In this document: positions 17,406 through 63,180 of the stretch, in pieces
How the letters are laid out: every line of letters starts with the position of its first letter
Position numbering within the stretch: position 1 is the first letter of the stretch
Assembly (NCBI GenBank): GCA_023666645.1
Contig: JAMPBP010000001.1
Location: forward strand, 799,169 to 863,168
Length of the DNA stretch: 64,000 bases
Origin: Clostridiales bacterium
GTDB lineage: Bacteria > Bacteroidota > Bacteroidia > Bacteroidales > Muribaculaceae
Direction of reading: 5' to 3'
Program-made: the position numbers and the translations under genes
Notes under the pieces: model-generated
What the model saw: the letters and a program-made list of their open reading frames with translations, nothing else
Told to the model about the DNA's origin: nothing
Databases searched by the model: none

Positions 17406-17744
17406 TCAAATCGTGATACGACGTGTTTGGGTTCCTACCTTCAGGATATATATCCCACGGGCTGTTATGCGTGTGCGTGAAGTCCCGGGGTGCAATTTCT
17501 TTTCTGAAATCAGTTGTCCGAGTATCGAGAATATCTTTACTGTCACAGTCTTGGAAGTAGTCACATAGACATAGCCGTCCCTCACGGTTACATCAAGCAC
17601 CTCGGCCGTCGATGGCTCCCGGTCACTGCTCGCCGCTACCAACTCGCTCTCCATTTCCTCCCAATGGCGCTGGGCCACAAGGTTGACAGGCATCCAGAAT
17701 AAGAGGATAACCAAAAAGGATAATATGACTGGACGTATTTTCAT
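17406..17744 (-). CDS. Small secreted protein with type IX sorting-like C-terminal domain
   Basis: Starting at the ATG at 17744 the product is 112 residues: signal peptide (MKIRPVILSFLVILLFWMP...VAQ), about 25 polar residues, then a beta-rich C-terminal region (VKIFSILGQLISEKKL, ARGIYILKVG) that resembles the type A sorting domain recognised by the type IX secretion system. Longer upstream readings exist, but the promoter at 17752-17759 rules them out. There is almost no cargo domain, so it may be a remnant, a small surface protein or a decoy. A PorU-like type IX protease is encoded at 27155. Confidence 0.65.
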   Translation of the reverse strand: MKIRPVILSFLVILLFWMPVNLVAQRHWEEMESELVAASSDREPSTAEVLDVTVRDGYVYVTTSKTVTVKIFSILGQLISEKKLHPGTSRTRITARGIYILKVGTQTRRITI

Positions 17745-17751
17745 CAATTGG

Positions 17752-17759
17752 CAAAGGTA
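17752..17759 (-). promoter_or_regulatory. -7 element just before the small type IX-tail gene
   Basis: TACCTTTG on the minus strand ends seven bases before the ATG at 17744, predicting a leaderless or near-leaderless transcript. Confidence 0.55.
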
Positions 17760-17889
17760 CACATTTTTCGACAGCCAGCATGCATGCATGGCGTTAAAAA
17801 TTAAAACCGATTCCGCATTTTTTTCGCAGCATAATGCATGCCACCACATTTTCCCAGGAAAACATAGCCATATGAATTACTAATTTTAT

Positions 17890-17897
17890 TACCTTTG
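17890..17897 (+). promoter_or_regulatory. -7 element for the rel operon
   Basis: TACCTTTG followed by C lies 57 bases before the rel start. A -33 TTG is not evident. Confidence 0.6.
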
Positions 17898-17954
17898 CAT
17901 TTTAGAGGCCGTCAATAACACGCCCTGCAACTCTCCATAAATATTAAGACACTG

Positions 17955-20219
17955 ATGAGCGACAAAAGTTTCACAACTCCCGAGGAAGACCGTATCATCG
18001 AGGCCGCCTTTCAAGATTTGCTCGACGGTTATCTTGCAAGTAACCACCGCAAAAAGGTCGAGATAATAAAACGGGCCTATAAGTTTGCCAAGGAAGCGCA
18101 CAGCGGTATACGCCGGCGCTCCGGTGAACCATACATACTCCACCCTATCGCGGTAGCACGCATCGCCAGTCGTGAGATAGGCCTTGGGTCAACGTCAATA
18201 TGCGCCGCTCTGCTACATGATGTGGTAGAGGACACCGATTATACCGTCGAGGATATAGAGCAGCACTTTGGTCCCAAAATAGCTCAGTTGGTAGGCGGAT
18301 TGACCAAGATTTCAGGAGGAATCTTCGGCGACAAAGCTTCACTACAGGCCGAGAATTTCAGAAAGCTCCTTCTCACAATGAGCGAGGACATCAGAGTTGT
18401 GCTCATAAAGATGGCCGACCGCCTGCACAACATGCGCACTCTCGGCTCCATGGCTCCCAGCAAGCAATATAAAATAGCCGGTGAGACACTGTACATCTAC
18501 GCCCCACTGGCCCACCGCCTCGGCTTATTCTCAATCAAGACCGAGCTGGAGGACCTCAGCTTCAAATACGAACACCCCGATGCCTATGCCCGTATCACCC
18601 GACAGATAGCCGAGAGCGAGTCAAAGCGCACAAGCGTATACAAAGACTTCTCGGCTCCCATCACCAGGCGACTCACCGACATGGGACTGAAATTCGAAGC
18701 CAAGGCACGCATAAAATCGGTCTACTCCATATGGAACAAGATGGAGACAAAACATGTGCCGTTTGACGAGGTCTATGACCTGTATGCCATGCGCATAATT
18801 TTCGAATGTGACGATCCCACCCGAGAGAAAGCGATATGCTGGGAAATTTACTCGGCCATTACCGACCTTTACCGACTGCATCCCGACCGCACCCGCGACT
18901 GGATAAGCAGTCCTAAGGCCAACGGTTACCAAGCATTGCACCTCACCGTAATGGGGCCCGACGGCAACTGGATTGAAGTACAGATACGCTCCCGGCGCAT
19001 GGACGAAATTGCCGAGAAAGGATTTGCAGCCCACTGGAAATATAAAATCGGAGACAGCGATGAAGAATCAGAGCTCAACGCGTGGCTCCACACCATCAAG
19101 GATATACTCGACAACCCCGAGCCTAATGCCATTGACTTTCTTGACACACTTAAACTCAATCTCTTCTCGAGCGAGATTGTCGTATTCACCCCCAAGGGAG
19201 AGCTCATCACTCTCCCCAAGGAAGCCACTGTGCTTGATGTGGCATTCTCCCTGCACAGCCAGATAGGTTGCCATTGCATCGCCGGAAAAGTAAACCACCG
19301 ACTCGTACCGCTGAGTCAGAAGCTTAAAAGCGGTGATCAGGTTGAAGTCCTCACATCCCAATCTCAGACCCCAAAAGCTGAATGGAACAATTTCCTCGCC
19401 ACCGCCAAGGCCAAGACCGCTCTACGACAGGCTCTGCGACGAGAACAACAGCCGGTCATGAGCCGAGGCCGCGAAATTTTCACGCAATTCCTGGCAAAAC
19501 ACGACATTCCGGACAATAACAATGTGATTACAAAGGCCATGGGTATATACCAGGCCGAAAACCGCGACCAGCTATATCTCATGCTCGGCAACGGTGACAT
19601 TGTGCTTGACGACCAGATGGCAAAAAGTCTGCGCCGACAAAGCGAGAACAAGGAGAAAGGATTGTTTACCAAGATATTCCGCATTCCCGGATTATCAAAA
19701 CCTGCAGTCGCCGACAAAAAAGAGAACGAGACACCGTCAAATACTACCGATGCCAAGCGTCCACCGATCAACATGAAGGAGACCTATGTGCTGAAATATG
19801 ATGACAAAGGCGCCAACTTCAAGTTCTCTGGCTGTTGCTGCCCTATACCCGGTGACAATGTCATAGGATTTGTCGATGACGACAACGAGGTGACCATACA
19901 CGCCCTCGATTGTCCCAGAGCCCTTGCCATGAAGGCAAGCTTTGGTCCCCGCATCGTAGCAACCCAATGGAGCAAATCGGAGGGAAAATTCCTCGCCTCC
20001 GTTCATATCGAGGGCATCGACCGATTTGGCATCCTGCAAGAACTCACACAACTCATATCCAATCATTTGAATATCGACATACGCCGCCTCAACATTGAAG
20101 CACATGATGAGGTATTCGAAGCCGACCTCAATGTTCTTGTCGAAGACTCCAATGTAGTCAATGACCTGTGTCATAAAATCAAACTCGTTCAAGGTGTAAC
20201 AAAAGCGTCACGCACATGA
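17955..20219 (+). CDS. rel: Bifunctional (p)ppGpp synthetase/hydrolase (RelA/SpoT)
   Basis: Cytosolic enzyme that makes and degrades the stringent-response alarmone (p)ppGpp. At 754 residues all domains are present: HD hydrolase with H88-D89 (LLHDVVEDTDYTVED), synthetase at about 240-360 with SPKANGYQALH and the EVQIR motif containing the catalytic Glu, TGS (VFTPKGELITLPKEATVLDVAFSLH given by its start VFTPKGELITLP), a conserved Cys-rich turn FSGCCCPIPGD, and a C-terminal ACT domain. Intact HD and EVQIR motifs suggest both activities. The stop overlaps the start of pgpH (ATGA), so the two are translationally coupled. Confidence 0.96.
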   Translation: MSDKSFTTPEEDRIIEAAFQDLLDGYLASNHRKKVEIIKRAYKFAKEAHSGIRRRSGEPYILHPIAVARIASREIGLGSTSICAALLHDVVEDTDYTVEDIEQHFGPKIAQLVGGLTKISGGIFGDKASLQAENFRKLLLTMSEDIRVVLIKMADRLHNMRTLGSMAPSKQYKIAGETLYIYAPLAHRLGLFSIKTELEDLSFKYEHPDAYARITRQIAESESKRTSVYKDFSAPITRRLTDMGLKFEAKARIKSVYSIWNKMETKHVPFDEVYDLYAMRIIFECDDPTREKAICWEIYSAITDLYRLHPDRTRDWISSPKANGYQALHLTVMGPDGNWIEVQIRSRRMDEIAEKGFAAHWKYKIGDSDEESELNAWLHTIKDILDNPEPNAIDFLDTLKLNLFSSEIVVFTPKGELITLPKEATVLDVAFSLHSQIGCHCIAGKVNHRLVPLSQKLKSGDQVEVLTSQSQTPKAEWNNFLATAKAKTALRQALRREQQPVMSRGREIFTQFLAKHDIPDNNNVITKAMGIYQAENRDQLYLMLGNGDIVLDDQMAKSLRRQSENKEKGLFTKIFRIPGLSKPAVADKKENETPSNTTDAKRPPINMKETYVLKYDDKGANFKFSGCCCPIPGDNVIGFVDDDNEVTIHALDCPRALAMKASFGPRIVATQWSKSEGKFLASVHIEGIDRFGILQELTQLISNHLNIDIRRLNIEAHDEVFEADLNVLVEDSNVVNDLCHKIKLVQGVTKASRT

Positions 20220-22255
20220 AATTCCCGTCAAAACTGAACACAGCCCGCAGCATTCTGTTCATTGCCGCGGTCGCCATCGTAGTATACTTCATGCCACGTA
20301 CCGACCGCATGCAATACAACTACGAAACCGGACGACCTTGGATTCACCCGCTTCTTACAGCACCGTTTGACATTCCCGTATACCGCGACTCAATCTCCAC
20401 CCACGCCCTCATTGACTCAATAGCACAAACATTCGAGCCCATATACCGATATGACCTGTCTCCACGCGACTCACTGCTGCATCGAATAAAATCATTGCGC
20501 TCCCTCACCCCCTACCAACGCGCCCTACTCGCCACCACCGTCGACACGCTTTACACCCACGGTGTCGTTGACATTGCCACCATGAGACAACTTGCCGGGA
20601 AAAAATCCATTCTTGTCATCAATGGCAACTCGATTACACGTCACCCATCAGCCCAGATACGGTCGCAACGCCAGGCCTATGCATGGCTTGACAGCATAGT
20701 GCGCGATAAGGCAAGCCGCCAGGCACTACAGTCGATGCAATTGTCACAATTGCTCATGCCCAATCTGCGACTGGACACGATAGAAAATAACCGACTCTTC
20801 AACGAGCGCATACAACCCATCACAGCAGCCTACTCTGTAATTCAACAAGGAGAGCGCATCATTGACCGCGGTGACATAGTCACCCCCCAGCTCGACATGA
20901 TTCTCTCCACCTACGAGTCAATGGCCGCCGACCGTTACAGCTTTACCTCAACCCAGAGACTCTACACCTTGCTTGGACAGGTGCTCATGGGAATAATAGT
21001 AATGGCACTTATATATATGTATCTATATACATATCGTCGCGACATCTTTGACAACATCAGGTCTCTGTCGGCCCTGGCCTCACTCCTGACAGGTTTCTAC
21101 ATCCTTGGCGTCATTGCTTCCAACACCCTCTCCATGGGAGCCTTCCTGGTCCCATTTGCAATGATTGTCATCCTGATAGTGGTATTCTTCGATCCCCACA
21201 CAGCGCTGTTTCTATATCTGATCGAAATTCTCATATGCTCAAGCATAACCACATATCCCCTTGAATTTTTCTTCATAGAGACAACAGTGGGAATTGTAGC
21301 CCTGTTTTCCCTCAGGGAGCTGTCGCGACGTTCCCAGTTGCTAAGAACGGCTGTTGTGGTGTTCATAGCCTACATCATCTCATATACCGCCATAGAACTG
21401 ATGGCCACCGCTACCATAAACACATTCTCATGGCGTATTGTAGGTTACTTTGCCATAAACATGGTGCTGATCACATTTGCCTACATCCTCATTTTCATAT
21501 TTGAAAAACTCTTTGGCCTCATATCATCGGTCACCCTGGTGGAACTCACCGACATAAATACCGGAGTCCTCAAGCAACTCTCGGAACAATGTCCCGGCAC
21601 ATTCCAGCATTCCATGGCCGTGAGCAACCTGGCCTCTAACGCTGCAGCCCGCATCGGAGCCAATGTACAACTCGTCAGAGCCGGCGCACTGTATCACGAC
21701 ATCGGAAAAATCAACAACCCCGCCTTTTTCACAGAAAACCAATATGGTGTCAATCCTCACGATGCGCTCAGTCCTGAACAGAGCGCACGAGTGCTCCACA
21801 ACCATATCAACGACGGGCTACGCATGGCCGACAAAGAGAAACTTCCACAGGTGCTCAAAGACCTTATAGCACAACACCATGGCAAAGGGAAAGCCAAGTA
21901 TTTCTATACAAAATACCAGCAACAGCACCCCGATGAAGTGATTGACGACACACTGTTCACTTATCCAGGGCCCAACCCCCAAACCCGTGAAGCGTCACTG
22001 CTCATGATGGCCGATTCAGTAGAAGCAGCATCCCGCTCCATGACCGACCATTCACCAGAGGCCATAGCAGCCCTCGTAAACCGCATCATCGACAGCCAAG
22101 TCGATGACGGGCTGCACAGGGAAAGCCCATTGTCATTCCGCGACATACAGCAGGCCAAGGAGTCATTCATAACACGCCTCCGCACAATGTATCACTCACG
22201 CATAGCCTATCCCCCTTCAAAGCCCACGACAAGTCAATCAAAGAATATGAAATGA
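20216..22255 (+). CDS. pgpH: 7TMR-HD cyclic-di-AMP phosphodiesterase-like protein (PgpH family)
   Basis: A 679-residue membrane protein: N-terminal membrane anchor, a periplasmic 7TMR-HDED region (about 40-250), seven transmembrane helices (about 258-445), then a cytosolic HD domain. The HD pair is H494-D495 (LYHDIGK), with further ligands in QHSMAVSNLA, HNHINDGLRMA and AQHHGKGKAKYF, so all metal ligands appear present. Characterised relatives hydrolyse cyclic di-AMP. It overlaps rel upstream and brkB downstream by four bases each. The three-gene arrangement suggests joint control of (p)ppGpp and c-di-AMP, which is an inference from context. Confidence 0.9.
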   Translation: MKFPSKLNTARSILFIAAVAIVVYFMPRTDRMQYNYETGRPWIHPLLTAPFDIPVYRDSISTHALIDSIAQTFEPIYRYDLSPRDSLLHRIKSLRSLTPYQRALLATTVDTLYTHGVVDIATMRQLAGKKSILVINGNSITRHPSAQIRSQRQAYAWLDSIVRDKASRQALQSMQLSQLLMPNLRLDTIENNRLFNERIQPITAAYSVIQQGERIIDRGDIVTPQLDMILSTYESMAADRYSFTSTQRLYTLLGQVLMGIIVMALIYMYLYTYRRDIFDNIRSLSALASLLTGFYILGVIASNTLSMGAFLVPFAMIVILIVVFFDPHTALFLYLIEILICSSITTYPLEFFFIETTVGIVALFSLRELSRRSQLLRTAVVVFIAYIISYTAIELMATATINTFSWRIVGYFAINMVLITFAYILIFIFEKLFGLISSVTLVELTDINTGVLKQLSEQCPGTFQHSMAVSNLASNAAARIGANVQLVRAGALYHDIGKINNPAFFTENQYGVNPHDALSPEQSARVLHNHINDGLRMADKEKLPQVLKDLIAQHHGKGKAKYFYTKYQQQHPDEVIDDTLFTYPGPNPQTREASLLMMADSVEAASRSMTDHSPEAIAALVNRIIDSQVDDGLHRESPLSFRDIQQAKESFITRLRTMYHSRIAYPPSKPTTSQSKNMK

Positions 22256-23634
22256 AAAATACTGACAAACAGTCACAAAACAACCGTCCAGGCCTCATAA
22301 GCCGACTCATAGGCTGGGGGCAACGCTTCTGGGCCTACTGCTCTGAGGGAGTGTGGAGCGATACGCGCCGCGATTGGCGCATCAGTATCATAAAGACACT
22401 GAATCTCTCGGTGCGTTCATTTCTTGACCGTGACCTGCAATCACAGGCCGCGGCAATGACCTACAAGACCGTACTCGCCATAGTACCCGCCCTCGCTCTC
22501 TTCTTTGCAATTGGCAAGGGATTTGGCATCCAGGAAAACATAAACGTTGAACTGCACCACTACTTCCCGGCCCAAACTGAAGCTATCGACAAGTGCATGA
22601 CATTCATCGACCATTACCTCGAGGCCTCGACCGAAGGGCTTTTTGTAGGCATAGGTATCGTTTTCCTCCTGTATACACTCATCTCTTTGTTAGGTTCGGT
22701 CGAAGACTCATTCAATCTCATATGGGGACTGAAAGAGGGGCGCAGTTGGGGTCGCAAAATCACCGATTACACCGCCATACTGCTTATTCTGCCTCTATTA
22801 CTGATTCTCTCAAGCGGTATCACGGTATTCGTAACCACCCTGCTGCAGTCAGCGCTGCCATTTCCATTTCTATCGCCTGTAATAACATATGCCGTGGACT
22901 TCCTTGGTATATTGCTCGGTTGGCTTTTCTTTGCCGGCTCATATATGCTGATTCCCAACACACGCGTGAAATTCAAGAATGCCTTCATAGCAGGTGCCAT
23001 AGCCGGGACAGGATACTTCATTCTTCAATGGCTTTTCGTAAGCGGCCAGTTGTATGTGACCCGCTACAACGCCATCTATGGCAGCTTTGCATTCCTACCA
23101 TTGTTGCTCATATGGCTTCAGCTGGTATGGCTCATAACACTTGCCGGCGGAGTCCTGTGCTACGCTTCACAGAGCATCTTTGAGTTCAGTTTCAGCAACG
23201 AAATCAACCGTATATCATTCGACTACCGGCGCAAGATCCTGGTAGGAGTACTGCTCATAACAGTGAAGCGGCGTGAACAAGGGCTTCCTCCTATCAACGA
23301 GCAGCAGATATCGCTTACCTATGGCCTACCCATATCACTGGTCACAAAGGCTGCCAATGACCTCATCGAAGTGGGGCTCATCGACAAAGTACTTCTCAAA
23401 GGGAAAAACGAGCAGGAGACCTATGGCATCTCACCAGCCATTGACACCGAGGACATAACGCTCGGACTGGTCATCAAGAGACTGCGCAAACACGGCTCCA
23501 CCGACTTTATCCCCGACTTCAACAACCGCTTCAAAGGAGTTGTCGATGCCATCGACTCAATAGAAGACATCACATGTCAGGAAGCCGATAAATACCTTCT
23601 GCGCGACCTGCCATTCTCCGACCCCAATCAATGA
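22252..23634 (+). CDS. YihY/BrkB-family inner-membrane protein
   Basis: A 460-residue protein with a YihY/virulence-factor BrkB domain at about 55-310: six hydrophobic segments, the early motif SQAAAMTYKTVLAIVPALALFF, and YNAIYGSFAFLPLLLIWLQLVWLITLAGG (given by its core YGSFAFLPLLLIWLQL). A cytosolic C-terminal part of about 140 residues resembles a winged helix (INEQQISLTYGLPISLVTKAANDLIEVG shortened to LTYGLPISLVTKAANDL). Function is unsettled; it was once misassigned as RNase BN. The four-base overlap with pgpH makes it the third gene of the rel operon. Confidence 0.9.
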   Translation: MKNTDKQSQNNRPGLISRLIGWGQRFWAYCSEGVWSDTRRDWRISIIKTLNLSVRSFLDRDLQSQAAAMTYKTVLAIVPALALFFAIGKGFGIQENINVELHHYFPAQTEAIDKCMTFIDHYLEASTEGLFVGIGIVFLLYTLISLLGSVEDSFNLIWGLKEGRSWGRKITDYTAILLILPLLLILSSGITVFVTTLLQSALPFPFLSPVITYAVDFLGILLGWLFFAGSYMLIPNTRVKFKNAFIAGAIAGTGYFILQWLFVSGQLYVTRYNAIYGSFAFLPLLLIWLQLVWLITLAGGVLCYASQSIFEFSFSNEINRISFDYRRKILVGVLLITVKRREQGLPPINEQQISLTYGLPISLVTKAANDLIEVGLIDKVLLKGKNEQETYGISPAIDTEDITLGLVIKRLRKHGSTDFIPDFNNRFKGVVDAIDSIEDITCQEADKYLLRDLPFSDPNQ

Positions 23635-55685: not shown

Positions 55686-56198
55686 ATGAACAGGCTATTT
55701 TTATTATTCGCATTCACTCTTCTGGCAATACCCGCATTTGCCGGCACAAAGATTGTCAGTGGCTCACTCTCTGAACTGAAAGGCGTCAAGACAATTCCTA
55801 TAACAGTGAAATGGGACAATGCTCTCTACGGGAAATCCGGGACCCTCGATGACTTTCTTGCCAAAGCTGAAAGGAACAAAGATTGGGAATCGGAATCACT
55901 TGATTACCTCTACCGCAAAACCAATTACTACACCGGTGAATACGGAATACGTCTCGTAGGTGACTACACGACCCTCATCAATTCTGAATATTACTTTGAG
56001 ATGGAAGTGGCCACTATTTCAAAAGGTGGTGAAATAACAGGCGAGATTCTATTGAAGAAAAAGGGACAGGAAGAACCTGTGGCTACAATCGCCTATAAAT
56101 CGGATGATGATGACGACGACGACAAGATTGCCTTCCGTGACCAATTCAAAAGTATCGGAGAGAATCTTGGCAAGCTCATAGTCAAGCAAATCAAGTAA
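55686..56198 (+). CDS. Secreted protein with seven-aspartate run, unknown function
   Basis: Starting at the ATG at 55686 it has 170 residues with a clear signal peptide (MNRLFLLFAFTLLAIPAFAG, cleaved after AFA). The rest is predicted alternately beta-rich and helical: a region with WDNALYGKSGTLDDFL, then YGIRLVGDYTTLINSEYYFEMEV, then seven consecutive Asp (about residues 139-145) before a final amphipathic helix (FKSIGENLGKLIVKQ). The acidic run could bind calcium. I recognise no family. The upstream promoter rules out the longer frame beginning at 55605. It may be functionally linked to the LolA operon that follows in the same direction, but that operon has its own promoter. Confidence 0.7.
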   Translation: MNRLFLLFAFTLLAIPAFAGTKIVSGSLSELKGVKTIPITVKWDNALYGKSGTLDDFLAKAERNKDWESESLDYLYRKTNYYTGEYGIRLVGDYTTLINSEYYFEMEVATISKGGEITGEILLKKKGQEEPVATIAYKSDDDDDDDKIAFRDQFKSIGENLGKLIVKQIK

Positions 56199-56242
56199 TC
56201 GCTGCTCCATCATCTGAACATTGACATGTACTCATTTCCAAT

Positions 56243-56273
56243 TTGGTTATTTGCATGACAATCTCTAATTTTG
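56243..56273 (+). promoter_or_regulatory. Promoter of the LolA-MMPL operon
   Basis: TTG at 56243-56245, 20 bases, TAATTTTG at 56266-56273, followed by C. It implies a leader of about 165 bases before the LolA-like start at 56444. Confidence 0.65.
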
Positions 56274-56301
56274 CCACTGGAACAAGCAACTAATAAGGTT
56301 G

Positions 56302-56373
56302 CGCATAGTGGAACTGAGACTGAACCGGATATGATGAACCCGCCACCGGGTTCACTGTCAGCCACTTTCTGCG
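56302..56373 (+). promoter_or_regulatory. Candidate structured RNA leader of the LolA-MMPL operon
   Basis: Nested pairs within the long leader: CGCA (56302-56305)/TGCG (56370-56373), AGTGG (56307-56311)/CCACT (56362-56366), CTGA (56314-56317)/TCAG (56358-56361), and a perfect hairpin TGAACCC (56335-56341)/GGGTTCA (56348-56354) with a 6-base loop. The closed architecture resembles a small regulatory RNA element. No known riboswitch class is recognised. Confidence 0.35.
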
Positions 56374-56443
56374 AGAAGGTTTGAACCTGTCAAAATGCAA
56401 TCGCTTGACACTTGACTCCTTCCCAAACCGCATCGTAACAGAT

Positions 56444-57082
56444 ATGAGAAAACTGATATGTAAAATAATAACAGGTCTATGGCTATGCTGTGAGATAGCT
56501 ATTCCGGCCTATTCATTGACACCCGGGCAAGAGCAGGAGGTCATTGATCAAATAAACACATCGGCATCAGAACTCAAGTCCTTGAGCTGCACATTCGTTC
56601 AAACTAAATATATCTCTTTACTGAGCGACAAAATGGTCGCCAACGGCAGCATGTGCTATTCCCAACCAAACAAGTTGAGGTGGGAATACAGAGCGCCTTA
56701 TGAGTATATCTTCATTCTGAATGGAACCAAGGTCTACGTCGGCAACAATTCAAGAAAGGATGTGATTGACACCGGCTCCAACAAGGTTTTCAAAGAGATA
56801 GCGCGCATAATGATGAGCACTGTGACAGGTAAAGCATTGTCAAACACCGCCGATTTCTCCGTGAATGTCAAAGATAGCCAGACGGCATGGAAAATCATAC
56901 TCGTGCCGAAGAAAAAAGAATTGAGACAGATGTTCTCAAAAATCGAAATGTTATTCAGCAAGAATGACAACGTTATTTCAGAGTTGAACATTGTCGAGAA
57001 AAACAGCGACAGGACAAATATCAAATTCTCAAATATCAACTTCAATAAAGCTCTCGATGAGAATCTGTTTACTATTCCTTAG
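56444..57082 (+). CDS. LolA-like outer-membrane lipoprotein/lipid carrier
   Basis: A 212-residue periplasmic carrier: signal peptide (ICKIITGLWLCCEIAIPAYS), then a LolA/LolB-type half-barrel with the characteristic ELKSLSCTFVQTKYISLLSDKM opening (core LSCTFVQTKY), GSMCYSQPNKLRWEYRAPYEYIFILNG (core PNKLRWEYRAPYEY) and the C-terminal INFNKALDENLFTIP. It would shuttle an acylated molecule between membranes. In aryl-polyene and flexirubin loci a LolA-like gene accompanies an MMPL exporter, as here. The ATG at 56444 was chosen because it begins the signal peptide; a TTG 21 codons upstream has no support. The next gene overlaps its end by 26 bases. Confidence 0.85.
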   Translation: MRKLICKIITGLWLCCEIAIPAYSLTPGQEQEVIDQINTSASELKSLSCTFVQTKYISLLSDKMVANGSMCYSQPNKLRWEYRAPYEYIFILNGTKVYVGNNSRKDVIDTGSNKVFKEIARIMMSTVTGKALSNTADFSVNVKDSQTAWKIILVPKKKELRQMFSKIEMLFSKNDNVISELNIVEKNSDRTNIKFSNINFNKALDENLFTIP

Positions 57083-57587
57083 CATCTTCCTGCCGTTGAT
57101 AGTCGTCAACGCCCAAATCGGAATACCGGCCGAGCAATCGGCCATGACAAGTAGATTCACTCTTGACATTTCGATGTCCAAAGGTCATCTCTCGGGCATC
57201 CTCATCGCAAAAAACCAGGAAGACACGATCATCGGGACAATGGTCAATGAATTTGGAGTTACCGCCTTATCGTTTGTCTATGAGAAGAAATCCCATAGAA
57301 TCAAGCTTCATGATGTGATTGGATTCTTAAACAAGTGGTACATCAAAAGGGTATTGAGGAGCGACATTAAGTATTGCCTGCATATCTTATATGGGACACC
57401 GGCAAAGGAAAAACGATATTACATTGTAAGCAGGAATGACAATGAGATAATCCTCACAAATACCAAGAGACAGATAACCTACACATTTTCCCCTATACAG
57501 GAGCAAAATGTGAATGACCAACAGCACGTAGGGAGATGTTGTGAAAATAATAGTATAACCCCAAAAATCCAGGAATGCTCAGATTGA
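57057..57587 (+). CDS. Small secreted protein, possibly LolB/DUF3261-like
   Basis: A 176-residue protein with a strong signal peptide (MRICLLFLSIFLPLIVVNAQ). The body is beta-rich: FTLDISMSKGHLSGILIAKNQ, IIGTMVNEFGVTALSFVYE, then a helix-like IGFLNKWYIKRVL. Position and pattern recall DUF3261/LolB-like outer-membrane acceptor proteins that follow LolA genes in aryl-polyene clusters, but no lipobox Cys is present and the match is weak. The last 30 residues are polar and Cys-containing (HVGRCCENN). It overlaps LolA by 26 bases, and the hydrolase gene starts on its stop codon, so it is coupled to both. Codon use appears more A/T-rich than in the flanking operons. Confidence 0.65.
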   Translation: MRICLLFLSIFLPLIVVNAQIGIPAEQSAMTSRFTLDISMSKGHLSGILIAKNQEDTIIGTMVNEFGVTALSFVYEKKSHRIKLHDVIGFLNKWYIKRVLRSDIKYCLHILYGTPAKEKRYYIVSRNDNEIILTNTKRQITYTFSPIQEQNVNDQQHVGRCCENNSITPKIQECSD

Positions 57588-58486
57588 TGCTTATAAGACT
57601 GAATAAAATACTGCCATTCTCGTTACTCGCACTAATAGGCTTCAGTGCATCGGCTCAGGGGTCAGTGAACATATGGGCGGGCACTGGAGTTGACAAAAAT
57701 GTAAGACTCACGCCCTACCTTGCTGAAGGTGAAGACAATATTGCTGTCATCGTGTGCCCCGGCGGCAGTTATTTCTGGCTGGACCGCAAGACCGAGGGCG
57801 CTGATGTAGCTAAGTGGCTTCAGTCAAATGGCATCTCAGCATTTGTCCTTGAGTACAGGGTGGGCGGAATACCGGCTTTCATAACACGTTACCGTTTACT
57901 GTCACGAGGAAATCGTTACCCCGACATGCTACAGGATGTGCAACGCGCTATCCAGCTGGTCAGAGAAAAAGGCGCAGAATATGGCATAAATCCCGACAAG
58001 ACCGGTATAATGGGATTTTCGGCCGGTGGTCATCTTGCAGGAATGTCGGGTGAGTTCTTTGATACAGACTTCCTATCTTCAGCAGGGGTTTCCCCGACGG
58101 TGTCGCTCCGGCCCGACTTCATTGCGCAAATATACCCGGTTGTTTCTTTTGTGGACCAATCCACTCATAAACGGTCACTCAGGGGCTTGTTAGGAGAAGG
58201 TAAATCAATAAGTGGTGAAATGAAAGACTCACTCTCGCTTGAAAAGCACGTAAGGACCGATATGCCACCTGTCTTCTTGATAAACTGCATCGATGACCCT
58301 ATAGTAAAATATCGCAATTCGGAGCTGATGGATTCGGCATTGACGGCAAAGGGTGTGCCACATAGATATACCCAGTACAAAACCGGAGGACACGGATTTG
58401 GCGCGACCCCGAGCAAAACGACCGAAGAAGCGATAGGTTGGCGCGAAGAATTCATCAATTGGGTCAACTCTTTATTCTCGGAATAA
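57587..58486 (+). CDS. Secreted alpha/beta hydrolase (acetyl-xylan esterase-like)
   Basis: About 299 residues from the ATG at 57587, which overlaps the previous stop (TGATG); an ATG at 57575 is the alternative. Signal peptide MLIRLNKILPFSLLALIGFS, then an alpha/beta hydrolase with oxyanion motif CPGGSYFWL, nucleophile elbow GFSAGGHLAGM, the Asp in NCIDDPIVKY and the catalytic His in GGHGFG. It resembles secreted BD-FAE/Axe-type esterases. In this operon it may deacylate the exported molecule rather than plant xylan; the sequence cannot decide. Confidence 0.85.
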   Translation: MLIRLNKILPFSLLALIGFSASAQGSVNIWAGTGVDKNVRLTPYLAEGEDNIAVIVCPGGSYFWLDRKTEGADVAKWLQSNGISAFVLEYRVGGIPAFITRYRLLSRGNRYPDMLQDVQRAIQLVREKGAEYGINPDKTGIMGFSAGGHLAGMSGEFFDTDFLSSAGVSPTVSLRPDFIAQIYPVVSFVDQSTHKRSLRGLLGEGKSISGEMKDSLSLEKHVRTDMPPVFLINCIDDPIVKYRNSELMDSALTAKGVPHRYTQYKTGGHGFGATPSKTTEEAIGWREEFINWVNSLFSE

Positions 58487-58534
58487 TCAAGAATCCCGAT
58501 TAGATTTCACGGGCCTCTATCTCAAAGAATCAGC

Positions 58535-61500
58535 ATGACAAAGACTATACTCACACTGTATGATTATTTCAGGAAACACCCTGCCATAGCCTGGGGGTCA
58601 TTTCTTGTTCTGACCGGTGTGCTTGTGATATCAGTGCTGAATCTTCAATACAAGGAAGATATATCTGATTTTCTTCCTCTTGACAACACTAATCACACAG
58701 CGCTGACCGTGTATCAGGATGTTTCGGGAGCAAACAATATCATCGCTACCGTAGAGGCCAAGGATTCGACAACTTTTGACCCACAGATTTTAGTTGACGG
58801 AGTCGATACTTTTGTCGGTATAATCGAGGAATATGATACCCTTTCGTTCGTCAGCAATATCACCAAGGAGATTGATGTCGACAAAATTCTCGACTTAATG
58901 TCAGATATATATATGGATATTCCATATTTTCTGACAGAAGATGACTATGCCAGGATTGATACCCTATTGACCGACCCCAATTATATAGCACAACAACTTG
59001 ACAACGACAAGCAAATGCTGCTGTTCCCCTCATCATCATTGCTGACATCCAATATACCCCGAGACCCACTGAATTTATTCACACCGGTCCTTACCCGTAT
59101 CAGACAGGGTGCGCTCGACATTGATTATGAGACACACGACAGTTACATTTTATCGCCCGATTCAAAAAAGGCAATCATAATCATAACCTCATCATTCGGT
59201 GCCAATGAATCGGAACACAATGCATCACTGGTCAATCTGCTCAACAAAGCCAAAGAAAAAGTTGAAACTGACAACCCCAATCTCGATATCCATATCATCG
59301 GAGGCCCTGCCATTGCCGTCACAAACGCCACGCAGATAAAGAATGACAGTGTCCTTGCCATCGCAATCGCTGCAATTCTCATATTGTGTCTCTTGATATA
59401 TGCATTCAAAAGCGCCCGTAATATAGCGCTGATCCTGATTTCAGCCGGCTGGGGGTGGCTATTTGCCATGGGAGGAATAGCCCTGTTCTACAATTCCATA
59501 TCGATCATCGTGATAGGAATCGCATCAGTAATCCTGGGTATCGCAGTTAACTATCCTCTACACCTTATCGACCATCTTCAAAACAGCTCCCGGACACGCC
59601 GGGCACTGAGAGAGATAATTTCGCCGTTGGTCGTAGGCAATATCACAACAGTAGGGGCTTTCCTGTGCCTTGTCCCGTTGAACTCTGTCGCCCTCCACGA
59701 CCTGGGTCTGTTCAGTTCCTTACTGCTGGCAGGAACTATCCTGTTTGTCCTGATATACCTGCCTCATGCCGTCAAAATCAACAAACCAACCGACGGTTTA
59801 CACAAGACCACAGTTATATCAAGATTGGCCGGCATATCGGTCGAGAAAAACAAATGGGTCGTTTACACTGTCATCGCGCTGACCCTGCTGTTTGCAGCAT
59901 TCAGTTTCAGGACCGAATTTGATGCCGACTTAAGGAACATAAACTACATGACACCTGAACAACGCGCCGACCTTGAATATTTCTCAAAATTGCAGGCTAT
60001 CGATAATGACAGCGAGAACCTATACATAGTGTCAAGTGGACAGGAATGGGACGAAGCATTGACTCAGAACGAAATCATAGACCGACACATATCTCTCCTC
60101 GAGACCCGAGGCTTCGTAACACGCAAAAAAGAAGTCACGCCCTTCCTTCCTTCTATGCAACAACAGGAGCGGAGTCTTTCAAGATGGCAGGAGTTTATAG
60201 ATAAACATAAGGAAAAGCTGACAGCCGGAACTAAATCAGTAGGAGCGTCACTCGGATTCAGTGAAGAAGCATTTGCTGATTTTTATGATATTCTTGATAA
60301 GAATTACGATGTAAGGTCCCATGACTATTTTGAGAGCCTGAACAAATCACTACTTTTAGGAAACCTCAGTGAAGACAGCGTGGCCCAAAGACGGTCGGTA
60401 GTCCAGATTGTTGAAGTAAAACCTGAAGATGTGGAGCGTGTCAAAAAAGAGCTCAATTCTATCGAAGGATTCTATGGTATGGCCTTCGATATAAAGAGCA
60501 TGAACAGCTCGATTACCAATACGCTCACTGCCGACTTCAACTACATAGGCATAGCATGTGGTTTCATAGTGTTTGTATTTCTGTGGATTTCCCTGGGAAG
60601 TATAGAATTGGCGACAGTATCATTCCTTCCCATGGCTGTAAGCTGGATATGGATTCTTGGATTAATGGGATTACTTGGAATCCGGTTCAATATAGTCAAC
60701 ATCATTCTGGCTACATTCATATTCGGTCAAGGCGATGACTATACCATTTTCATGACCGAGGGTCTTTCTTTCGAATTTGCCTACAGGAAGAAACTGCTCG
60801 CCTCATACAAAAACAGCATTATCATCTCGGCACTTATAATGTTCATTGGCATCGGGACACTGGTTTTTGCCAAACACCCGGCGATGCGTTCACTCGGAGA
60901 AGTGACAATTACAGGAATGCTATCGGTCGTGATTATGGCCTATTTATTCCCTCCATTGATATTCAATTGGTTAGTGAAGAAAAATGGCGTGGTGAGATAC
61001 CGCCCTGTTACATTGAAAAAAGTTCTAAGCACCATACTCAGCTCGTCTGTGCTGTTTATCCAGTTGAATGTCGCTTACATCATAGGAATCCTTATGATGG
61101 AATTGACAAAGCCAACTCCAAAGAAGAAACTGATGCTGCACCGTCTATGCTGTTCCATGTTCCGATGGGACGTAAATAGGATGCCGGGAATCAAATACCG
61201 GTTTGAGAATCCCGATGGTATCGATTTCAGCACCCCATTGATTATGACAACTGATCATCAGTCATTTCTTTCATGCATTTACCTGATGACCTTGACGCCA
61301 AAAATTATCCTCATAACCAATGACCACACCAGGCAAAAACCTATAACAGGCCGACTGTCAGACTGGCTTGACTTTATAACCGTAGACCACGTGACCGGGA
61401 ATATGATTGAAATGTTGCGCCCATACGTGTCGCAAGGCTATAGCATATGCTCTTCCCCGACTGAAGCCATAGAGCTTTCCAATTCCCTTGGACTTGATTT

Positions 61501-62086
61501 ACTGCCTGTCCATATTCATGGCCTTGGTCAAATCATGCCTGAAGGCTCTTCTCTGCTCCATGGCGGAACAGTCATCATGACAGCAGGACGGCTTATAGCC
61601 CGGGATAAACCCGATTCGGCGGGTAGTTCCATCACGGCGCAAATCAAGACACTGACACAGCAACTCCAAATGGAGCAAGTCAGGATATGCCGGGCAGAGA
61701 ATACCGTTGCAATGTTCGCCCCTACAGTTTATGACAAATACCGCTACAAGGGAGCCGATGTAGAGCGCAAGGCGAGAAAAGCATTGAAAACCTATTCTAC
61801 AATAGCATGCAATATTGAACACATACCCGGCGACTCACCATTATTGGTAATCGATGAAGACGGGCAGGGCGAACTTCCGCTTCTCCTCGCCATGATGTAT
61901 CCCTCACGGGTAATAAACAGCTATATCGGCAACAACGATGGTCACCGTCTGCTTTCATGCATCATTCCCGGGTTTGTGGACAACATAACTGTTATATCGC
62001 GAGAGGAATGCGACGCCGAGGCATCACAGTTTCATACGACTGTTCAGATAGCGCCTCACCGGCGTGTCGTAGTATTTGGCCAATAA
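58535..62086 (+). CDS. MMPL exporter fused to acyltransferase-like and methyltransferase-like domains
   Basis: A 1183-residue protein in the architecture annotated in Bacteroidota as a trifunctional MMPL transporter/lysophospholipid acyltransferase/SAM methyltransferase. Residues 1-870 form the RND/MMPL pump: two halves each with a periplasmic loop and membrane helices, with GIAVNYPLHLIDHL and FGQGDDYTIFMTEGL in the helices where MMPL proton-relay residues sit. Residues about 885-1055 resemble a PlsC-type acyltransferase, but the HX4D motif reads H908-QSFL-S913 and the usual FPEGTR reads SSPTEA (973-978), so it looks inactive. The last 120 residues suggest a decayed methyltransferase Rossmann core (LLVIDEDGQGELPLLLAMMYP shortened to VIDEDGQGELP). 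Its 3' end overlaps the convergent acyltransferase gene by 63 bases. Likely exports a lipid across the inner membrane to the LolA-like carrier. Confidence 0.88.
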   Translation: MTKTILTLYDYFRKHPAIAWGSFLVLTGVLVISVLNLQYKEDISDFLPLDNTNHTALTVYQDVSGANNIIATVEAKDSTTFDPQILVDGVDTFVGIIEEYDTLSFVSNITKEIDVDKILDLMSDIYMDIPYFLTEDDYARIDTLLTDPNYIAQQLDNDKQMLLFPSSSLLTSNIPRDPLNLFTPVLTRIRQGALDIDYETHDSYILSPDSKKAIIIITSSFGANESEHNASLVNLLNKAKEKVETDNPNLDIHIIGGPAIAVTNATQIKNDSVLAIAIAAILILCLLIYAFKSARNIALILISAGWGWLFAMGGIALFYNSISIIVIGIASVILGIAVNYPLHLIDHLQNSSRTRRALREIISPLVVGNITTVGAFLCLVPLNSVALHDLGLFSSLLLAGTILFVLIYLPHAVKINKPTDGLHKTTVISRLAGISVEKNKWVVYTVIALTLLFAAFSFRTEFDADLRNINYMTPEQRADLEYFSKLQAIDNDSENLYIVSSGQEWDEALTQNEIIDRHISLLETRGFVTRKKEVTPFLPSMQQQERSLSRWQEFIDKHKEKLTAGTKSVGASLGFSEEAFADFYDILDKNYDVRSHDYFESLNKSLLLGNLSEDSVAQRRSVVQIVEVKPEDVERVKKELNSIEGFYGMAFDIKSMNSSITNTLTADFNYIGIACGFIVFVFLWISLGSIELATVSFLPMAVSWIWILGLMGLLGIRFNIVNIILATFIFGQGDDYTIFMTEGLSFEFAYRKKLLASYKNSIIISALIMFIGIGTLVFAKHPAMRSLGEVTITGMLSVVIMAYLFPPLIFNWLVKKNGVVRYRPVTLKKVLSTILSSSVLFIQLNVAYIIGILMMELTKPTPKKKLMLHRLCCSMFRWDVNRMPGIKYRFENPDGIDFSTPLIMTTDHQSFLSCIYLMTLTPKIILITNDHTRQKPITGRLSDWLDFITVDHVTGNMIEMLRPYVSQGYSICSSPTEAIELSNSLGLDLLPVHIHGLGQIMPEGSSLLHGGTVIMTAGRLIARDKPDSAGSSITAQIKTLTQQLQMEQVRICRAENTVAMFAPTVYDKYRYKGADVERKARKALKTYSTIACNIEHIPGDSPLLVIDEDGQGELPLLLAMMYPSRVINSYIGNNDGHRLLSCIIPGFVDNITVISREECDAEASQFHTTVQIAPHRRVVVFGQ

Positions 62087-63169
62087 CCACGCCAGCAACG
62101 GAGCAACAATCACTATCGTCACGGCTACGGGAAGTACCTGAGTGACCGAAAGTCCATTGGACCAAGCCCACGAATACATCAGATACATGAAAGGGTAATG
62201 TATAATGTACACCGGATAAGATAATACCCCAAGTGTCGAACATATCGACTGAGACCGGCTGTCAGTACACCGTCCCGATGCACCTATATATACAATAAGA
62301 GGGAACAACACCAGGGTACACACAGTATCATAAATACCATTGATTATCGACACCCGGGTTGCTGAACCCGCATAAGGCGCAGCAAGCAAAACAACAATGA
62401 GTGCAGAGCATATCCAGAAAGCGCCTCTTATATGCACAGGCTTGAAACAACGCGAGAGTAGCATGCCGGCTGAGAATGAGAAGGTCATGCGCACCAATCC
62501 CATCCACCAGCCGCCATCGGCAGCTGTCCAACCCACGCCGAGATGATAGGCCCCCGAACAGTTGAACAAGGCAATGCCGGCGAGCAAACACCCCGACAGA
62601 GCAGTGAAAACAGCGAGCGCCCTCGTGGAAAACCTGTGGAGAAAAAGCGCATAGAATATACTCCCCATATACTCAAAAAAGAGCGACCAGGAAGGGCCGT
62701 TGAGCGGGAACATCTCCCCATTGCCCCTTATCTCGGGTAGCGTGCCAGGCAACGATGGAATCATGAAAAGTCCGAGCAAAAGCGATAACATAACGGCCGG
62801 AACTGAGACAGAAGAGCCGTCCCATTTTTCACAACCTTGGATCATGAATGCAATTACACCGAGCACTACACCCGCAACCACCATAGGTTGCAATCTCACA
62901 ACACGTTTCATAAGGAACTGCCTTGCAGTCATTCCACGCTTCCAACTGTCATCATATGCATAGCCTATGACAAAGCCCGAGAGAACAAAGAAGAAATCGA
63001 CAGCCAGATACCCGTGGTTGAAAATCTGATCGACAGGCGAAGAAGCAAAACACTCCCCCACATGATAAAGAATCACCATAAAGGCAGCGACACCACGCAA
63101 ACCGTCAAGCAGGTCGTAACGCGGCTTAGAGCCTGCTCTACAAAAATTGTTATCAACTGTACTAATCAT
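62024..63169 (-). CDS. OafA/AT3-family membrane acyltransferase
   Basis: An integral membrane O-acyltransferase (Acyl_transf_3) of 381 residues from the ATG at 63169. It acetylates or acylates sugars and lipids in the envelope. The hallmark R/H segments are YDLLDGLRGVAAFMVILYHV near the N-terminus and HGYLAVDFFFVLSGFVIGY, followed by FLMKRVVRLQP; about ten hydrophobic helices follow. A TTG two codons upstream would overlap the promoter. The substrate is unknown; its position against the MMPL operon suggests, without proof, a product of that system. Confidence 0.9.
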   Translation of the reverse strand: MISTVDNNFCRAGSKPRYDLLDGLRGVAAFMVILYHVGECFASSPVDQIFNHGYLAVDFFFVLSGFVIGYAYDDSWKRGMTARQFLMKRVVRLQPMVVAGVVLGVIAFMIQGCEKWDGSSVSVPAVMLSLLLGLFMIPSLPGTLPEIRGNGEMFPLNGPSWSLFFEYMGSIFYALFLHRFSTRALAVFTALSGCLLAGIALFNCSGAYHLGVGWTAADGGWWMGLVRMTFSFSAGMLLSRCFKPVHIRGAFWICSALIVVLLAAPYAGSATRVSIINGIYDTVCTLVLFPLIVYIGASGRCTDSRSQSICSTLGVLSYPVYIIHYPFMYLMYSWAWSNGLSVTQVLPVAVTIVIVAPLLAWLLAKYYDTPVRRYLNSRMKL

Positions 63170-63172
63170 ACA

Positions 63173-63180
63173 CAAAAGTA
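63173..63180 (-). promoter_or_regulatory. -7 element of the AT3 gene
   Basis: TACTTTTG on the minus strand ends three bases before the ATG at 63169, so transcription would start at about the A of ATG: a leaderless candidate. A -33 TTG at the ideal spacing is absent. Confidence 0.5.

Follow-up and report, generated by a model that had tools for sequence, protein, structure and literature searches.

Genes of the predicted export run

We analysed a window of 64,000 nucleotides from a Muribaculaceae genome (GCA_023666645.1, contig JAMPBP010000001.1, positions 799,169 to 863,168), in which the forward strand carries, from 55,686 to 62,086, a run of five genes predicted to export a lipid. The first (55,686–56,198, likely start) encodes a secreted protein without family assignment that accompanies the export cassette. 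Its structural model (predicted local distance difference test score 86) has PelC among its best Foldseek matches (E 6e-5, template modelling score 0.37–0.56), which weakly predicts a PelC/PqiC-like fold. Homologues in three relatives (72% identity in genome G115, 48% in G182 and 70% in G013) lie between the ketosynthase gene KSx and FlxJ in single pigment clusters. The second gene (56,444–57,082, likely start) encodes LolA2, a periplasmic lipid carrier of the flexirubin/aryl-polyene type, which scores 203.3 bits against the curated cut-off of 125 for LolA2_flexi (NF053544); no other LolA2_flexi match was found in this genome. A LolB2-like receiver follows (57,057–57,587), with 26.6 bits against the cut-off of 60 for LolB2_flexi (NF053540). 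The best solved-structure matches of its predicted model are LolB, giving the product a LolB-like fold on that model. The C-terminal tail of the receiver (57,511–57,587), 22–26 residues, is peculiar to the window copy and unlike 39 aligned homologues; its position matches the start of the following synthase gene in G115. The fourth gene (57,575–58,486) encodes a secreted alpha/beta hydrolase resembling the BD-FAE/PaeX esterases (GFSAG serine motif; PF20434, 4e-22). The fifth (58,535–62,086; PF03176) encodes an inner-membrane pump of the MMPL/RND type with acyltransferase and methyltransferase-like domains at its C-terminus, the former named from an alignment of relatives bearing PF01553 and the latter by eye. 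The HpnN-type hopanoid exporter profile gave 97 bits, below its curated cut-off of 751.85.

A preliminary description had read the last four of these genes as a LolA-like protein, a small secreted protein possibly like LolB, an alpha/beta hydrolase and an MMPL-acyltransferase-methyltransferase fusion that together form an inner-to-outer membrane export route. These assignments and the route agree with what we found, and the list now extends one export-linked gene upstream of LolA2. The run is tight as described, with overlaps confined to the first three of the four genes, and the fusion is real, with an acyltransferase domain that is inactivated by motif. The suggested relation to aryl-polyene and flexirubin loci gains from the LolA2_flexi score and from the presence of orthologues inside the clusters of relatives.

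Synthase genes elsewhere in the genome

The same description called the locus one without a synthase. This holds for the window and for its immediate surroundings, since the nearly 9 kb beyond contain OmpA-like, GAPDH and other unrelated genes, and is wrong for the genome. A ketosynthase (KS) search of the genome gave five matches: one on contig C1, which is presumably FabF, one on C18, and three at C11:1146882-1150369. The last three belong to a synthase cluster (L006) on the same contig as the window, about 280 kb downstream of the export run, and they answer the suggestion that ketosynthase and acyl carrier protein (ACP) genes be sought at a distance. Three products of this cluster exceed their curated cut-offs: FlxA (805 bits against 700), FlxB (392.8 against 340) and FlxJ (587.5 against 560). 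The cluster further contains two ACP, two KS, one chain length factor (CLF), two dehydratase, thioesterase, LpxL-like, PlsC-like, GT2 and CrtI-like genes, and a ligase gene lies a few kb beyond it. The PlsC-like protein keeps the motifs NHQGHLD and FPEGTR. The genome thus holds the polyene synthase set of tyrosine ammonia-lyase, KS, CLF, ACP, reductase and dehydratase, not in one locus with the export genes, and the synthase cluster itself has no LolA, LolB or MMPL match. That the export genes might borrow a product made elsewhere had been foreseen, and this synthase is a candidate source. Only one C-terminal domain of 3-ketoacyl-ACP synthase III (KAS III), presumably that of FabH, was found in the 91%-complete assembly, which leaves no candidate for DarB; for this reason a full flexirubin (a dialkylresorcinol ester) is less likely as the product than an aryl-polyene lipid.

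From these comparisons it seems probable that the run from 55,686 to 62,086 is the outer-membrane export arm of a tyrosine-primed aryl-polyene (flexirubin-type) lipid that the distant synthase is predicted to make, and that it was acquired from another lineage of the family and superseded the genus's own arm. In such a pathway the tyrosine ammonia-lyase and the ligase would produce a coumaroyl starter, KS/CLF, FlxB and the dehydratases would assemble the polyene, and the LpxL-, PlsC- and GT2-type enzymes would join it to a lipid. The MMPL pump would shift this lipid across the inner membrane or extract it from there; trimming may fall to the secreted hydrolase, and LolA2 would carry the lipid to LolB2 at the outer membrane.

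We searched eight genomes of the genus (g1), including that of the window (G000). LolA2 and FlxA above cut-off and the ligase occur in the same five, and none of them in the other three (97, 85 and 56% complete). Where both halves are present they are held apart. In the four congeners the export locus reads KSx-LolA2-LolB2-hydrolase-MMPL and lies away from the remaining synthase genes; both flanks of this locus are visible in G038 and G078. In the genus's synthase locus (L128:774-2548; L130) a B12-type radical SAM-like gene, named by eye, and a gene for a protein of about 120 residues stand between the CrtI-like gene and the ligase.

The cassette might export another lipid or a lipoprotein and have nothing to do with the distant synthase. 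Cassette and synthase are not physically linked, the LolB2 score is below the family cut-off and the acyltransferase fused to the pump has decayed, all of which would fit such a cargo. Set against this are the LolA2 score above a flexirubin-specific cut-off, the presence or absence of both halves together in 8/8 genomes of the genus, a synthase cluster that lacks LolA, LolB and MMPL genes of its own, and the orthologues that sit inside the polyene clusters of relatives. We regard a different cargo as improbable.

To place the split we surveyed 247 genomes of the family, sampled evenly from a larger group. LolA2 exceeds its cut-off in 26 of them and FlxA in 20, with both in 17. Of these 26 genomes, 19 have LolA2 next to the KS2/CLF genes; reading of the stretches shows that the other seven are the five g1 genomes and two of genus g13 (G056 and G012). 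The possibility that the genes are rarely found together in relatives, raised at the outset, does not hold for the four genes from LolA2 to MMPL, given these 19 adjacencies and the co-occurrence of both halves in the genus. The usual order in a single cluster, with variations, is FlxA-FlxB-KSx-(55,686 homologue in three)-FlxJ-ACP-LpxL-FabZ-thioesterase-KS1-unknown-ACP-KS2-CLF-LolA2-LolB2-DH2-GT2/PlsC-CrtI-hydrolase-(ligase)-MMPL, so that export and synthase genes are interleaved in one run in most of the family clusters read. Among named public genomes we examined the best 80 of 144 exporter loci. At least one synthase-side gene stands alongside in 69 of these 80 (GT2 or DH2 being counted, hence the inclusion of G056), ten are cut by contig ends, and one, that of the congener G078 (L230), is export-only; the export loci of the other three congeners fall outside the 80.

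We rejected the idea that the split is unique to the window's genome, as splits occur elsewhere in the order. In genus g13 the stretch LolA2-LolB2-DH2-GT2-PlsC-CrtI (L076 in G056, L087 in G012), followed in G056 by hydrolase-MMPL, lacks the KS/ACP half in the upstream 9–10 kb, a split at a different breakpoint. In other families of the order, synthase and export genes form separate stretches in G473 (L134/L135) and G557 (L136/L137), with GT2 on the export side, and G613 has an export-side locus like that of G473. The two kinds of gene also lie on separate stretches, of mixed content, in G610 (L138/L139) and G455. Five further candidates (G526, G490, G430, G400 and G589) are not splits despite a distant FlxJ match, because LolA2 there lies beside KS genes; in the first four, where the FlxJ stretch was read, the FlxJ match stands alone. 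The loci of G025 and G087 stop at contig edges. A genome of another genus (G147:C3; L079, L090) has a synthase half with no LolA2, LolB2, hydrolase or MMPL match alongside and no LolA2 match in the genome, and is thus an exporter-less synthase. Apparent in-frame TGA codons in two LolA2 matches (G529:C1:927752-928348 and G346:C13:30665-31261), considered as recoding, are most likely ordinary stops near the end of the profile.

Ancestry of the two halves

Among the genomes compared, the window's export proteins are closest to those of G115, which belongs to genus g4 and has a single cluster. Identity to G115 is 73% for LolA2, 62% for LolB2, 78–79% for the hydrolase, 70–73% for the pump and 68–72% for the product of the 55,686 gene. 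Identity to the congeners is 38–42% for LolA2, 29–37% for LolB2, 57–63% for the hydrolase and 40–47% for the pump, and the 55,686 gene has no match in the other seven genomes of the genus. Trees join G000 with G115 for LolA2 (support 96/99), the hydrolase (100/99) and the pump (100/100), and the other four g1 genomes form a clade of their own for each (100/99, 90/95 and 100/100, respectively). The synthase trees unite the genus: FlxJ with 100/100 (five genomes), LpxL with 100/100 (four genomes) and FlxB with 100/98. The KSx tree does so weakly with all rows (85/65) and with 98/99 (four genomes) without G213 and the short row of G094. Approximately unbiased (AU) tests, with G112 and G213 dropped for the export genes where present, reject monophyly of the genus for the pump (1.0e-7), LolA2 (0.0023) and the hydrolase (0.0019). 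They reject the pairing of G000 with G115 for FlxJ, LpxL (G095 and G213 dropped) and KSx, each at less than 1e-4. The hint of transfer in the preliminary description is thereby strengthened, with export genes grouping with G115 and synthase genes with the genus.

The KSx gene of the window's genome, 84–87% identical to those of G038, G059 and G078, is located on C18, where a SlyD-type gene lies 186 bases away. The space between KSx and SlyD is occupied in G078 by LolA2, LolB2, hydrolase and MMPL. Both sides of the KSx-SlyD junction in G000 align to the G078 DNA with roughly 80% identity, and the sequence between them gave no significant blastn match to any of these four genes. Because the trees conflict and KSx and SlyD adjoin where G078 has its export genes, it is likely that a foreign export arm took the place of the native one.

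Simple relocation, a shift of the native export genes to another place in the same genome with rapid divergence and no horizontal transfer, would suit the fluid gene order of the genus and the separation of export from synthase genes already seen in the four other g1 genomes. It would have to accommodate three export genes that group with G115 against a rejected genus monophyly, a 55,686 gene with no match in seven congeners, and identities of 62–79% to G115 as opposed to 29–63% to congeners for LolA2, LolB2, hydrolase and pump. We consider it very improbable.

Several observations weigh against an acquired export arm for the polyene lipid. Besides the low LolB2_flexi score, no lipobox cysteine is seen near the likely cleavage site of the window's LolB2 in an alignment read by eye (no signal-peptide program was used), unlike the LolB2 of Flavobacterium johnsoniae. 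The groups used in the AU tests follow genus labels, yet they were set after the identity pattern was known. Genera g4, g14, g17 and g30 are scattered in the trees for export and synthase genes alike, which suggests frequent movement of the clusters and leaves the donor lineage uncertain. The export locus shows only its upstream flank in G059 and only its downstream flank in G094, where KSx is cut by a contig end, and the synthase locus is spread over contigs in G059, G078 and G094. The genome is a single assembly, 91% complete, so that its missing part may conceal a native export arm; there is also a small chance that the assembly is chimeric. No clean empty insertion site was seen by OmpA or GAPDH, the surroundings being rearranged in the congeners read. 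No significant remnant of synthase genes was found at the cassette junctions, where the best of 40 junction/gene pairs was equalled in 11 of 300 shuffles, a chance level. The fused acyltransferase is absent or decayed in seven single-cluster genomes as well (G007, G181, G138, G213, G232, G241 and G095), and hybrids are thus not alone in losing it. Finally, the synthase locus is itself A/T-rich, at 46–47% GC. Each of the five export genes, at 40.8–48.7% GC, falls short of even the lowest value (49.9%) among 30 genes upstream (mean 52.8, standard deviation 2.1), which bears out the earlier remark that the coding is more A/T-rich than the flanks. As the synthase locus is A/T-rich too, the cassette does not stand out by composition alone, and we dropped composition as proof of transfer. 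A DH2-like fossil suspected by eye in the gap between LolB2 and the hydrolase was also discarded, as 128 of 300 shuffles scored equally well.

The present arrangement likely arose when a complete cluster arrived and losses on the two sides then complemented each other, the newcomer shedding its synthase genes and the resident its export genes. With no significant junction remnants, arrival as a complete cluster is suggested by gene order only. The cassette may alternatively have moved as a ready-made export-only unit. Four congeners do hold an export-only set (KSx-LolA2-LolB2-hydrolase-MMPL), and the junctions without significant remnants would suit such a unit; no export-only locus of the G115 type is found among the best 80 of 144 exporter loci, and in G115 and G182 the synthase block stands between the 55,686 gene and the other export genes. 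We think transfer of an export-only unit somewhat unlikely.

The acyltransferase domain fused to the pump has decayed. In seven pump homologues retrieved by a search, both acyltransferase motifs, NHQSxLD and FPEGER..RFHKGA, are preserved. The window pump reads DHQSFLS, has lost the aspartate of HX4D and lacks a 16-residue FPEGER..RFHK block, so that its domain (residues 880–1050; 61,172–61,684) bears no active PlsC-type HX4D or FPEG motif. Among 24 untruncated pumps (G112 left out), 12 keep both motifs, six lack the region and six are degenerate, namely those of all five g1 genomes and G095; the degenerate pump of G078 still has HX4D. The motifs are intact in G115. Counting private changes of G000 versus G115, with G182 as outgroup, gave 40 versus 4 in the acyltransferase, 63 versus 36 in the MMPL part and 7 versus 6 in the C-terminal part (Fisher test, acyltransferase against MMPL part, p 0.0006). 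The pump's own acyltransferase would have decayed once the cassette had arrived, a plausible reason being that the resident pathway already provides for acylation of the lipid. A hybrid surface-pigment pathway that arose by complementary gene loss after a complete cluster came from another genus, with the acyltransferase of the new pump switched off to leave a pure exporter of a foreign lipid, is our tentative proposal, somewhat short of an even chance. If true, lipid export modules of this class would be interchangeable between lineages.

The decayed domain and the non-homologous LolB2 tail would equally suit a dying remnant of an acquired cluster, non-functional and exporting no pigment. All five frames are intact, however, the GDDYT stretch of the pump is retained, and the genome offers no second LolA2_flexi match. 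The dN/dS values of the five genes relative to G115 are 0.04–0.14 (NG86), at dS values of 1.7–3.3 that are near saturation. By this codon comparison the cassette is under purifying selection, and we hold a dying remnant to be an improbable account.

Known systems and the surroundings of the cassette

The closest described systems are the flexirubin clusters (flxA–flxY) of F. johnsoniae and Chitinophaga pinensis. They share with the present genes a tyrosine ammonia-lyase FlxA, FlxB, the FlxJ family, a KS/ACP/dehydratase set, LolA2 and a predicted exporter. They differ in that here the export genes lie outside the synthase locus, a single KAS III C-terminal domain leaves no DarB candidate, and LolB2 has no visible lipobox. 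For the aryl-polyene (APE) cluster of Escherichia coli CFT073, ApeL (LolA-like), ApeM (RND) and ApeN (LolB-like) are proposed to move the APE lipid to the outer membrane. An RND pump with LolA and LolB homologues is common to both systems, transport being proposed there and predicted here. The E. coli genes form one cluster primed with 4-hydroxybenzoate, whereas the present pathway is split, is predicted to be primed through tyrosine ammonia-lyase, and has a pump whose fused acyltransferase has decayed. In single clusters of the family such as those of G115 and G143, gene content and relative order are for the most part as here. There, however, synthase genes alternate with export genes along one run, and the acyltransferase motifs of the pump are intact in G143 too.

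A 2025 study covering several Bacteroidota species places lolA2/lolB2 always in flexirubin-like pigment loci (PMC11885536). In C. pinensis the locus numbers of darA/darB are far from those of flxA–flxY, so that part of the flexirubin pathway is separate and a split as such has precedent. Abstract openings and selected passages from a literature search mention no split or swapped export arm and no arm of foreign descent that works for a resident synthase. Separate loci with separate ancestries offer a natural test of the specificity of LolA2, LolB2 and the MMPL pump for the polyene lipid. Mining by single loci would report an orphan exporter at the window and an exporter-less synthase at L006.

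Converging on the export run from the reverse strand is a gene for an OafA-type acyltransferase (62,024–63,175). The preliminary description had counted it as part of the locus; the convergence is confirmed, and membership is not, as the gene does not accompany the cassette and has no match in the relatives' stretches compared. It is probably not part of the export unit, and we think it unlikely as a cassette member, although its GC content (49.3%) is just under the lowest among the 30 genes upstream. A related OafA (48%) adjoins GAPDH in G121, a genome with no LolA2 match that is only 56% complete.

As to signs of a mobile element, the window has no tRNA gene and the cassette is not flanked by convincing repeats, no search having been aimed at transposases. 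A plasmid search with the hydrolase returned 154 records, all of them distant hydrolases below 60% identity. Near GAPDH in G078 and G038 (L152, L153) are orthologues of the genes at 17,406–23,634 of the window, in G038 the first two only. These genes and GAPDH are separated in the window's genome by about 40 kb that contain the cassette, and this stretch may be lineage-specific or rearranged.

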